Source: Anas platyrhynchos (Eukaryota > Chordata > Aves > Anseriformes > Anatidae). From it: a stretch of 64,000 nt of DNA. The stretch is from positions 4,400,501 to 4,464,500 of the forward strand of contig NC_092606.1 in assembly GCF_047663525.1 (NCBI RefSeq), written 5' to 3'. The notes beneath the pieces are model-generated. The model was not told the DNA's origin, did not search any database, and saw nothing but the letters and a program-made list of their open reading frames with translations. A program made the position numbers and the translations under genes. This document shows, piece by piece, positions 12-21,804 of this stretch (its first letter is position 1; every line of letters starts with the position of its first letter).

Positions 12-125
12 CTTCTCGCTGGCCGAGAACGGAGACCCGGGGCTGGTGGGGGTTCCCGGCTCAGAGTCATCTTCATCCTCCAGGACTTTATCCAGGTACC
101 CTATGGCCTCCTCTTCCTCCTCCAT
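12..125 (-). CDS. ABR: ABR alternative first coding exon (short-isoform N-terminus)
   Basis: Read on the minus strand, an ATG at 125 opens 38 codons starting MEEEEEAIGYLDKVLEDEDD and ending in ASEK, followed by a donor GTGGGC at 11-6. The acidic start matches, from recall, the N-terminus of a shorter human ABR isoform whose first exon bypasses the MEPLSHRG exons. The exon ends in phase 0, the same phase in which the shared exon at 2654-2838 ends, so both can join the same downstream ABR exon, which lies left of the window. ABR is a cytosolic and synaptic regulator with a DH-PH RhoGEF unit, a C2 domain and a RacGAP domain. None of those domains is in this exon, so only the N-terminal tail differs. 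The transcription start and 5' UTR length are not visible. The avian exon is a few codons shorter than the human one as recalled. Confidence 0.82.
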
Positions 126-2653: not shown

Positions 2654-2838
2654 CCCGGTGCCGAGGCCGTCGGTGGGTGTGGGTGAGACGCCGTCGCCGC
2701 TGTCCTGGCCCCGGGCGCTGAGCTGGGGGGACATGGTGGGCGACTCGTCGATGTAGGGCATGGTTTCCGAGCCCTCCGGCAGTGCCTTGGGCTCCTCGTT
2801 GCCCTCGGCATCGTAGTCATCTGCACCATAGTTGAAAT
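2654..2838 (-). CDS. ABR: ABR shared second coding exon
   Basis: On the minus strand the acceptor TGGCAG ends at 2839 and the exon runs to a GTAGGT donor at 2653-2648. After two bases that finish a split codon it encodes 61 residues beginning [15 protein letters not shown] and containing [20 protein letters not shown], ending [11 protein letters not shown]. This closely follows human ABR just after its MEPLSHRG exon. In ABR this acidic, serine/proline-rich stretch precedes the DH domain, and the PYIDESP core has a counterpart (PYIDDSP) in BCR. The exon starts in phase 1, so it can take the single overhanging base from either upstream first exon (7129-7189 gives Asn, 14596-14953 gives Asp). 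It ends in phase 0. Length is 185 nt. Identification is secure. Confidence 0.95.
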
Positions 2839-7128: not shown

Positions 7129-7189
7129 TGCTGTAGAGGGTGTCGATCCAGGAGAGCCGCGGCAGGCCGCGGTGGCTCAGTGGCTCCAT
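7129..7189 (-). CDS. ABR: ABR standard first coding exon (MEPLSHRG N-terminus)
   Basis: On the minus strand the ATG at 7189 opens [20 protein letters not shown], apparently identical to the N-terminus of the long human ABR isoform, followed by one base and a GTACGT donor at 7128-7123. The overhanging A joins AT at 2838-2837 to give Asn, producing ...[13 protein letters not shown], the expected human-like junction. The 20 residues carry no known domain. The exon sits in a CpG-rich, GC-box-rich setting. The upstream stop or transcription start cannot be fixed, so the 5' UTR boundary is open. Exact peptide conservation plus splice-phase agreement make this call strong. Confidence 0.95.
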
Positions 7190-12480: not shown

Positions 12481-14539
12481 CGCTCCTACCCCTGCTGTCG
12501 GGGTAGCGCCGCGTTGTTACGGGGAGCCCAGCTGGCAGGATGCCCACCGACCGACCACATGGAGCTACAGCACCGAAGGAGAGCACCGAGGAGCCCAAAA
12601 CTTCATGAAAACATTGAGGGAAGGCCCCCCAGGCAGCCCAGCGCTCGCTGAGTTACAAACCACAATCAGGAATTTGTAACGATAGCTGAAAAATACAGAG
12701 AAGTGAGAAAAAAACAGGAGCACTAAATGAGCCACACGTAACCAGAAAGGGGGATGCAGTCAACGACCACATGCATTTTATTGCATGCTCAAATTCTGCT
12801 TTTAAATGTCAGCGCCAGCAGGACACGCTGGATGTGCCAATGCCAAGGAAACGCTCAGGACAAGCCCAGGAAGAGCCCGTGCCCATCCCTGCCACCGTCA
12901 TCTGGTGGCCACGCAGCCCCCGGCTCGGGCAGCCCGCTGGTCCTGTGCGCTCAGCAGAGCCTCCCCTGGGGATGGTGGCAGTCAGACAAGTGCACACGGT
13001 GGGACCACGGCTGGGGTCCCCTTTTGGGGGATGAGGAGGAGAGGAAGCCAAACTTAACCACAGCCGACGCAGCCTTGGTTTTCAAGGTGCTGCCACAAAG
13101 CCCCCCTGCTGGCAGCGAAGGTTTTAACCCGGCGCCCTGGGGGCTGGAAGACCCCTCCGGGTCACGGTGCCCTGGAGAGCGGTTTCTTACCCCATGCTCC
13201 AGGGAGGCCCCTTTACCAACACATCTTCCAGTGGCCCAAGAGCAGCATTGCACAATCCTCAGCGTGGGGAACTGTTCAGGAGCACGCCCGAGACACAAAC
13301 ACAGCACAGGACGTGAGCATGAACCCAAAGGCACCGCCACACGGGGACTTGGCCACTCCGACTGCTCTTAACCCCTCAGCCACCACCAAGCAGCACTCCG
13401 AAAATGACAGAGCATCACTGCTGCTGGGGCTGGCTGGGAGCTGTGTGGGGTTGGGACCCGGCTCCCACCCCAGATGTCCCCACACGTCGGTGACCAGAGC
13501 CGGGTAGAGGCAGAAACGCAGGCGGGAGCGAGCCCAGGGCGGCACGAAGACACGACGCCATCCTTTGGATGTGTCACCTACAGACAGCTGGGGAAGGCGA
13601 AACAGGAGCTGAGCTGCTCTCCAGCCCTGTAGACTAACGCGATAAATATAAATTAAACTAAACACTAAGCACAGTTTGACGCTGGAGTGTTTGTTTGCGC
13701 TTAAACCACCGCTATGCAGCTTTCCTGCAAACCGACCCTGAACAATTGAGCAAGAACCAAACTAATTCAAGGCAGCTGCAGAATTAGCTCTGCGAGAAGT
13801 GCCATCCCCTAGCTGTCAGGACGGTGTTTGAGCCGGGATTAAAGCACACGGGATGATGCAACAACAACTTCCAGGCCGCTGGAAGTAGGACAGCGTGACA
13901 GGCAACAGCACTGGCTGTGCCGGCAGTGCCACGAAGCAGCCAGCAGCTCGCCAAAGGACATTGTCCTCAGCGTGCCCGGCCACCTCGGTGCCCCGGCGTG
14001 CTCCTGTTTTAGCAGCTCCAGGGCTTCCCCAGGGTGATTGCACGGTGTCACCCAGCAGAGGCGTCCCTGTGAACCAGGTCACACCTGGAGGAAGTGACTT
14101 TTGTGCGGTGTCCCAGCCCCAGAGGCAGCTCCCGAGCCGGTGGCACGTCCCCAAAGGCCGGCTGCACCCTCCCTCCTCACGTGCCCAAGGACGGAATCTT
14201 GGCACGGGGCACACCTGGAAGTGGGACAGGGACAGCACGGGGGCTTGGGGTGACATTAACTGATGGCACGATGGGGTGTGTGACAGCGTGGGGTGCCCTT
14301 GGGCTGTGTGATGGGGCTGTCGTGGGGAGACCACCGGACCTTTGGCCGTGCCACCACACGGAGCGTGCCAGCCACACGCAGGGGGCTCGGGACGGGGTCT
14401 GGGGGCGCGCTCCATCACAGCGCCCCTCGCACATGTCCCCGGAGGGCCGAGGACACCCCGTTTGGCGTGGCCGCTCCTACACCACGGGGCACCCCGACGG
14501 CACACCGGGGCCTCTCCACCCCAATTCCTCGGCTCGCCC

Positions 14540-15290
14540 CCAGCCCCCCGGGGCGCTGCCGGTGCCGGTACCCGCAGCCGTGCCACGGCACCCACCTGCC
14601 GAGGACGCGTCCTCCGCCCCGGAGCTGCCGTCGCTGCCTCCCTCCGGGGAGCTGCCGCGGGGGGCGGCGGCCGGGGGGCGGCGGCGCGGGGCGGGGGCGG
14701 CGGCGGCGGAGCCGGGGGGTCGCGGGGGGGCTCGGGCGAGCGCCGCCTCCAGGTACAGCACCTTGAAGCGCTCCTCGGCCAGCGCCCGCTGCAGGCGGCG
14801 CAGGTGCCGGCGGCACCGCTCCAGCTCCCGCTCCATCGCCCGCACCGAGCCCAGCTCCATGCGCGGCGCCGGTTCCCCCGGGAACTCCTCCTGCCAGTGC
14901 CGGGCGAAGTCTGCCCGAGCAGCAGCCGCCGCCTCCTCGTTGCCCACCGCCATCCCCGGCCGGCCCCGGGTTTCCCGGCTCCGCCGCCGTCAGCCTTCTT
15001 CACCTCCTCCTCCTCCTCCTCCGCCTTCCGCCCCCCGCCGCCGCCGCGGGGCCTGACGTCGGCTCCCGGCCGGCCCCTCCGGACCGCCCCCGGCCTCAGC
15101 ACGGCCCCGACGGGGCGGGGAGCAGCTCTGCCACCGCCCCCGGCACGGCCCGGCACGGCCCGGTGCGGCTACCGGCAGCCGGAGAGCCGGGACCGCTCCC
15201 GGTGCCTCCCCGGTGCCCCCCGGAGGAAGCCGCTTCCAGGCTGCGGGGCTGCGGCGGGGGCTCCCCCGGGGCTCCCCGGAGTGCAGGGAG
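14540..15290 (-). promoter_or_regulatory. ABR: CpG island spanning the BCR-like ABR first exon
   Basis: The DNA is extremely CpG-dense across the exon and about 300 bp upstream in gene orientation. It carries GC boxes, a (CTC)n tract at about 15003-15022 and a near-CRE TGACGTCG at 15054-15061. No TATA box was seen. This is the expected promoter for the upstream ABR transcript. Confidence 0.6.
14596..14953 (-). CDS. ABR: ABR far-upstream first exon encoding a BCR-like coiled-coil N-terminus
   Basis: On the minus strand an ATG at 14953 opens 119 codons plus one base, ending at a GTGGGT donor (14595-14590). Residues about 16-73 (FARHWQEEFPGEPAPRMEL, then ERELERCRRHLRRLQ and EERFKVLYLEAALA) match the BCR N-terminal oligomerisation coiled coil in spacing and key residues: FxxxW, PRMEL, ELERC, RRL, ERFxxxYL. 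Residues 75-119 are a low-complexity Ala/Pro/Arg then Ser/Gly/Glu tail. The exon ends in phase 1, and with the exon at 2838 the junction codon is GAT (Asp), giving ...[17 protein letters not shown] exon 1 also encodes a kinase-like region, and nothing here resembles it. The exon lies in a CpG island. Transcript proof is lacking, but homology, phase and donor agree. The predicted isoform would have 181 residues through the shared exon and could oligomerise, perhaps with BCR. Confidence 0.85.
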
Positions 15291-15680
15291 GATGCTGAGG
15301 AGGGCAAGAAGTGCCCGGTGCTGGCAGCGACCCCAGGTGCTGCAGAAGGCTGGTACCGAGCCTGCAAGAAACGAGCCTGGAGGATGGGGAACACCGGTGG
15401 CACGGGGCTGTCCTGCCCCAGGCAGCGTGTGCCCATCTCCTGGTCCTCATCGCCATCCGGACGGTGATGACCGGACAGTGGCACGTGGCCTGGTGATGCT
15501 TTGATGGTGACACTTGTCCTGAAGATGCTCTGAAGGTGACACCCGGCAAGAAAGGCTCTGTGCCACGCTGCACATTCCCACTGCATACAACCCACTGTGC
15601 CCCCACGGGACAGGTTTTGTTCCCCACGCCCCGGGCTGGGTTGGCATTTCCCCCGTGCCACGTGAGGGACACGGAGAGGG

Positions 15681-18388: not shown

Positions 18389-19081
18389 ATGTCCCAAGCA
18401 GCCGTGGGGAGCAGTGCGGCACGGCAGGGACCCCCCGATGGCTTGGAAGGGGAGCTGGAAAGGGGGGCTGCACCCCAGCTGTGCCACGGGCAGGACCTGT
18501 GGGACCCCAAGGGGAGGGAAGCAGCCACCCACCTGGGGGAGGCTGAAGAGATGAAGGTGAGGAAGAGGAGCAGGCCAGTGCGCTCCAAGGCCAGGAGGAT
18601 GGCTGCCAACGTCCGAGAGCGCAAGAGGATCCTGGACTACAACCAAGCCTTCAACGCCCTGCGGCTGGCCCTCAAGCACGACCTGAGCGGCAAGAGGCTC
18701 TCCAAAATCGCCACCCTCCGGCGAGCCATCAGCCGGATCACGGCTCTGTCCCTGTCCCTGCACGGTGCCGCGCGCTGCTGGCCCTGCGCCCACTCCGAGT
18801 GCCGCGGGCAGGGCGCGAGGGACGGCCGCCCCCGGCTCCTCGGTGCTGCAGGCTATGGGGGATATTCCCCCGAGAACCAGCTCCAGCACCACGAGAGCCC
18901 GAAGGAAGATCGCCTGGCAGCCAGCCCTGCGTTTTATCCCATCGGGAGCCACCAGCTTGGGCTCCGCAGCAGCTGCCAGCAGAAACACGCGGGCAGCCAG
19001 CGAGCCCCCCCGGTGGCACCGCTCTCCTGGCAGCTGGGAGGGCTCCAGAGCTCAGGCTACCAGCGCCTCCCCATCCACTGA
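18389..19081 (+). CDS. BHLHA9: Basic helix-loop-helix factor BHLHA9
   Basis: This is a complete, uninterrupted 230-codon gene, close to the 235 residues recalled for human. The basic region and helices span about residues 62-121: RPVRSKARRMAANVRERKR, then ILDYNQAFNALRLAL, KRLSKIATLRRAI and a leucine-rich second helix. DNA-contact residues Asn74, Arg76 and Arg78 are present; their human equivalents are the ones changed in mesoaxial synostotic syndactyly. BHLHA9 is a nuclear regulator of apical ectodermal ridge and limb development, and its duplication is linked to split-hand/foot with long-bone deficiency. The N- and C-terminal flanks are divergent, the latter Ser/Pro/Gln-rich. The ATG has a GCCATGT context; in-frame Met codons occur again at residues 55 and 71. 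It lies between ABR and TRARG1, as in human. No AATAAA was seen downstream, so the 3' end is open. Confidence 0.95.
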   Translation: MSQAAVGSSAARQGPPDGLEGELERGAAPQLCHGQDLWDPKGREAATHLGEAEEMKVRKRSRPVRSKARRMAANVRERKRILDYNQAFNALRLALKHDLSGKRLSKIATLRRAISRITALSLSLHGAARCWPCAHSECRGQGARDGRPRLLGAAGYGGYSPENQLQHHESPKEDRLAASPAFYPIGSHQLGLRSSCQQKHAGSQRAPPVAPLSWQLGGLQSSGYQRLPIH

Positions 19082-20945: not shown

Positions 20946-21800
<855 letters not shown>

Positions 21801-21804
21801 TAGC

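Follow-up and report, generated by a model that had tools for sequence, protein, structure and literature searches.

The window analysed here, a stretch of 64,000 nucleotides of the Anas platyrhynchos genome (NC_092606.1, positions 4,400,501 to 4,464,500), carries on its minus strand the 5′ end of ABR and, further upstream, a candidate alternative first coding exon of this gene, which encodes a domain of the type found at the N-terminus of BCR (Table 1). The two genes go back to an old duplication in vertebrates. The A of the exon's ATG stands at 14953 and its final base, directly before GTGGGT, at 14596, exactly as had been given, to the base, in the original prediction, which was made from the letters of the window. 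The 358 nt of the exon amount to 119 codons and one further base, giving a phase 1 donor, and are translated as MAVGNEEAAAAARADFARHWQEEFPGEPAPRMELGSVRAMERELERCRRHLRRLQRALAEERFKVLYLEAALAR, followed by a tail rich in Pro, Ala and Arg that runs to ...GAEDASSA and the G of a split codon. An in-frame TGA lies 13 codons 5′ of the ATG, which has a G at both -3 and +4. The exon and the region upstream of it fall within a CpG-rich stretch that may act as a promoter: the observed/expected ratio of CpG is 0.90 at 14501-15000 and 0.71 at 15001-15500, and the former value, over the exon, is the highest among the 46 half-kilobase bins of positions 1-23000. The window is without a match in Rfam at gathering scores.

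The residues encoded by this exon are closely related to the oligomerisation domain of BCR. Residues 14-74 match PF09036, the Bcr-Abl oligomerisation domain of Pfam, over model positions 3-63 of 73 (97 bits; expectation value, E, 6.3e-28; curated cut-off 23.1 bits), and in the PDB a single sequence matches at E up to 1, namely 1k1f, the oligomerisation domain of BCR itself (E 7.7e-13). Over 61 gap-free residues the exon is identical to human BCR (1k1f) at 27 positions and to the BCR of the same genome at 24, while human BCR and the genome's own BCR are identical to each other at 53 of these 61. The ungapped BLOSUM62 score against the genome's BCR is 130, which is 11 standard deviations above shuffled sequences, and the highest score reached in 100,000 shuffles was 31. 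When the entire genome of 1.26 Gb was searched with PF09036 (seven candidates scored), two places were found, namely BCR exon 1 on C16 (132.9 bits) and the exon upstream of ABR on C20 (97.6 bits), and a second genome search likewise gave only these two. None of 14 control genomes matched PF09036, a weak control given that the nature of these genomes is unstated. In prokaryote contigs (596 pattern stretches) and viral contigs (356), tblastn with a limit of E 1e-3 found no relatives of the exon, which is expected because this is a vertebrate exon. As to the motif letters, the genome's BCR (L008 1698-3213, C16) reads PKMEL and ELEMC, and the ABR exon PRMEL and ELERC.

Both the strand and the donor phase of the coiled-coil exon fit exon 2 of ABR. 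The acceptor at 2838 reads CTCTGGCAG/ATTTCAACT (a slash marks the splice junction; the exon starts ATTTC) and completes the split codon G/AT, Asp, and the coiled-coil exon joined to exon 2 gives a continuous frame; exon 2 in turn ends at 2654 with the donor GTAGGT. Hence two of the initial claims, the likeness to the N-terminal coiled coil of BCR and the in-phase joining to the ABR exon at 2838, are borne out, the latter at the level of the splice signals in the DNA. Splice sites of ABR were inspected for the first exons and exon 2. The tblastn matches of an 859-residue human ABR sequence jointly span residues 1-859 in order, with residues 252-285 covered by a single match of 43% identity, and the ABR exons continue in order on C20 from 4,398,785 down to 4,383,597.

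The original prediction had called the exon an ABR first exon; the exon does fit this role, and what had been overlooked are two other starts of the gene, at 7189-7129 and 125-12. The first, of the human type, was found by tblastn of human ABR (95% identity over 21 residues). It lies between the coiled-coil exon and exon 2, is also of phase 1 and uses the same acceptor. The second was found with an alternative N-terminus of human ABR as the query, at 67% over 46 residues (E 3.5e-12). Judged by these matches, ABR has at least three possible starts here, and the coiled-coil form is one among them. That ABR has alternative starts is already known, since PMC3044668 mentions a non-neuronal isoform of Abr that has an N-terminus of its own.

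A comparison with BCR in the same genome points to a common origin of the two first exons. BCR exon 1 contains 1516 coding nt (505 codons plus one base, phase 1) and ends GGGGATGCAG/GTGTGT (GCAG/GTGTGT), and BCR exon 2 starts TTTTACAG/ATGCTTCG (ACAG/AT), again with a split Asp codon. Because the domain, the location at the 5′ end of the gene, the intron phase and the split codon are all the same, the coiled-coil exon most plausibly corresponds, in ABR, to exon 1 of BCR. Its inheritance from a gene ancestral to BCR and ABR, which had been suggested at the outset, is supported by the intron phase and split codon that it shares with BCR intron 1. The likeness covers the domain and stops there. 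In a tblastn search of the window with the 505 residues of BCR exon 1 at E up to 1, residues 11-65 alone matched and the rest of the exon, including the kinase-like region, gave no match; a full BCR-type N-terminus, with the kinase-like region and the remainder of exon 1, is thus not what ABR has here, and the earlier statement that the kinase-like region is absent was correct. A linker of 44 residues sits in ABR where BCR exon 1 has about 440 residues, the kinase-like region among them.

The predicted fold agrees with this assignment. AlphaFold2, run on the monomer without templates or relatives, places helices at residues 3-23 and 37-74, with a mean predicted local distance difference test score (pLDDT) of 76.1 and a predicted template modelling score (pTM) of 0.40, and the prediction therefore contains the short N-terminal helix and the long helix that PF09036 requires. 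Foldseek on the predicted structure of the exon returned seven matches, the top five of which are chains of 1k1f (E 7.0e-4 to 7.7e-3, TMt 0.70-0.80, root-mean-square deviation 1.8-2.1); the remaining two have E above 6, which leaves 1k1f as the only entry with E under 1. The VIA comparison also matched 1k1f (8 chains compared). In a heptad register that was fitted by hydrophobicity and not read from coordinates, the 12 a and d positions include 10 that are hydrophobic in the genome's BCR, and all 10 are hydrophobic in ABR as well. The hydrophobic periodicity of 3.5 residues was as high as that of ABR in 172 of 20,000 shuffles. The coiled coil that had been proposed for checking is upheld by the predicted helices and, within the fitted register, by the core positions.

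Table 1. Coordinates in the window of the candidate coiled-coil exon, its parts and the ABR exons near it
Feature	Coordinates	Strand	Details
ABR alternative first coding exon (candidate)	14596..14953	-	ATG at 14953; 119 codons + 1 base; donor CAG/GTGGGT
BCR-type oligomerisation domain, residues 14-75	14729..14914	-	long coiled-coil helix, preceded by the PRMEL linker and the end of the short helix
Pro/Ala/Arg-rich linker, 44 residues (76-119)	14597..14728	-	from the translation; pLDDT 54-67 per ten-residue block from residue 81
CpG-rich stretch, putative promoter	14501..15500	.	covers exon and upstream region
ABR exon 2	2654..2838	-	common acceptor GGCAG/AT; phase 1 in, phase 0 out
Human-type ABR exon 1 (20 residues + A)	7129..7189	-	donor A/GTACGT; alternative to the coiled-coil exon
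Third possible ABR start (MEEEEEAIGYLDKVLEDED..., MEEEEEAIG...)	12..125	-	lies beyond exon 2; length 114 nt; phase 0

We consider it likely that this counterpart of BCR exon 1 has its own promoter, is spliced to ABR exon 2 and gives an ABR product which oligomerises as BCR does. A transcript that starts in the CpG-rich stretch would join the coiled-coil exon to exon 2, and its product would be ABR, with its DH-PH-C2-RacGAP domains, fronted by a two-helix oligomerisation domain of the BCR type, the short and probably disordered linker taking the place of the kinase-like region of BCR. The long helices would then most likely pair in an antiparallel manner, as in BCR, and the dimers stack to a tetramer, which would cluster the DH-PH, C2 and RacGAP domains and raise their avidity for membranes and for Rac. 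The two other starts would yield ABR without the domain, so that promoter choice would toggle between clustered and unclustered ABR. As for BCR itself, PMC5727386 reports that its domain forms antiparallel homo-tetramers, and PMC3044668 that Bcr minus its first 62 residues is monomeric in a cross-linking test.

It may also be that the exon belongs to a real ABR isoform which pairs mainly with BCR, as a hetero-oligomer, or with another partner and not with itself, although we regard this as rather unlikely. Such pairing is suggested by the fact that the core is kept, yet the e and g residues are shared with BCR at 3 of 10 positions and the net charge of the helix is +5 in ABR vs -1 in BCR. However, these positions depend on the fitted register, and the structure prediction is that of a monomer.

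We find it improbable that the exon, though a homologue of BCR exon 1, has decayed or fallen silent, a relic from which no transcript is made any longer. Two observations do favour a relic and thereby weigh against a functional exon: ABR has the two other starts, and when this GC-rich exon was shuffled 20,000 times the frame stayed open in 33.6% of the trials. The open frame was for this reason rejected as proof of coding and is weak evidence when taken alone; the weight of the case rests on the homology and on the common splice phase. Against a relic, the exon still has its start, the upstream in-frame stop, the donor, its phase and the hydrophobic residues of the core, and a neutral exon should have lost them in the time since BCR and ABR were duplicated. 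Moreover, codon positions 1 and 2 agree with BCR more often (31/61 and 38/61) than position 3 does (25/61), though this comparison must be read with the caveat that third-position GC differs strongly between the ABR exon and BCR (59 vs 36 of 61).

It is most improbable that the exon is a small gene of its own, or belongs to some other gene and is upstream of ABR by chance, for despite the 11.8 kb to exon 2 and the other ABR first exon in between, the phase and the split Asp codon suit ABR exon 2 and mirror BCR, and both of the neighbouring open reading frames with known domains that were examined (helix-loop-helix and CD225) are on the opposite strand.

With regard to the surroundings of ABR, the plus-strand open reading frame at 18389-19081 is a single frame that encodes a helix-loop-helix domain (PF00010, 45.3 bits) and, from its position beside ABR, is probably BHLHA9, and that at 21276-21803, also on the plus strand, contains the first part of a CD225 domain (PF04505, 44.5 bits) and is, judging by its position, presumably the first exon of TRARG1 (TUSC5). 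The GC content steps down along the window, from about 57-71% (1-23 kb) to about 50-59% (23-35 kb) and about 36-49% (beyond 36 kb). With the YWHAE protein as the query, the best hit in the window had E 0.19 and was not convincing.

The original prediction had also raised the possibility that the exon is lost or unannotated in mammals, and the word unannotated now appears doubtful. PF09036 scores the 61-residue segment of ABR at 97.1 bits, that of the genome's BCR at 106.7 and that of human BCR at 109.8, whereas a profile made from the two BCR sequences gives ABR 55.1 bits and the BCRs 155.3 and 151.9. When the six blocks of the ABR segment were swapped into that of the genome's BCR, the PF09036 score changed by +1.7, -2.3, -1.6, +1.0, +0.7 and -9.2 bits, while permuting the ABR residues inside a block, once per block, lowered it by 4.4, 13.3, 11.9, 5.7, 10.1 and 19.4 bits. 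With the BCR-only profile the score fell by 9.4 to 24.3 bits for the ABR blocks, and permutation of their residues took away just 1.6 to 4.2 bits more. PF09036 thus scores residues of the ABR type about like those of BCR in five of six blocks, and it seems from these scores that ABR-like residues are represented in it, by way of annotated non-mammalian ABR or of invertebrate single-copy relatives. Since PF09036 accommodates such residues, ABR-type domain sequences are probably in protein databases or predicted proteomes already.

What is absent from the literature reached is a discussion of the domain in ABR: among the literature matches listed (titles and abstract starts), none was recognised as dealing with an oligomerisation domain in this protein. 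PMC3044668 states that Abr is without the N-terminal oligomerisation domain and uses ABR as a natural comparison with no coiled coil for BCR, and according to PMC6505627 the N-terminus of BCR has a putative kinase activity that ABR lacks. From the description of Abr in these papers we infer that the exon was lost in mammals. A broader proposal, which we advance only tentatively and hold to be somewhat doubtful, is that outside mammals ABR normally oligomerises by the ancestral coiled coil, toggled by promoter choice and mixed with BCR, and that mammals lost this ability. If so, the rule that BCR oligomerises and ABR does not would stem from a loss in mammals and would not describe the family as such. 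Should ABR have had the domain originally and non-mammals keep it, the role of the domain in the control of Rac could be studied through a comparison of isoforms of one gene, and the mammalian division of labour between BCR and ABR would become an example of domain loss. The coiled coil of BCR is what drives BCR-ABL leukaemia.

Three known systems can be set beside the ABR exon. Firstly, it shares with BCR exon 1, PF09036 and 1k1f a gap-free two-helix domain over 61 residues in a first coding exon, the donor phase and the split Asp, and its predicted fold matches 1k1f; it differs in being identical to human BCR at no more than the 27 of 61 residues, in the charge of the helix (+5 vs -1), in the length of the exon (358 vs 1516 coding nt) and in having no kinase-like region. 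Secondly, the ABR long isoform that begins with the human-type exon 1 is alike in gene, exon 2 acceptor and downstream exons, whereas its own exon 1 encodes 20 residues without a coiled coil. Thirdly, the BCR-ABL fusions have a coiled coil of this kind at the N-terminus and oligomerise through it (PMC5727386), but these are cancer fusions, whereas the domain of ABR is part of a normal gene and would be attached to ABR's own domains.
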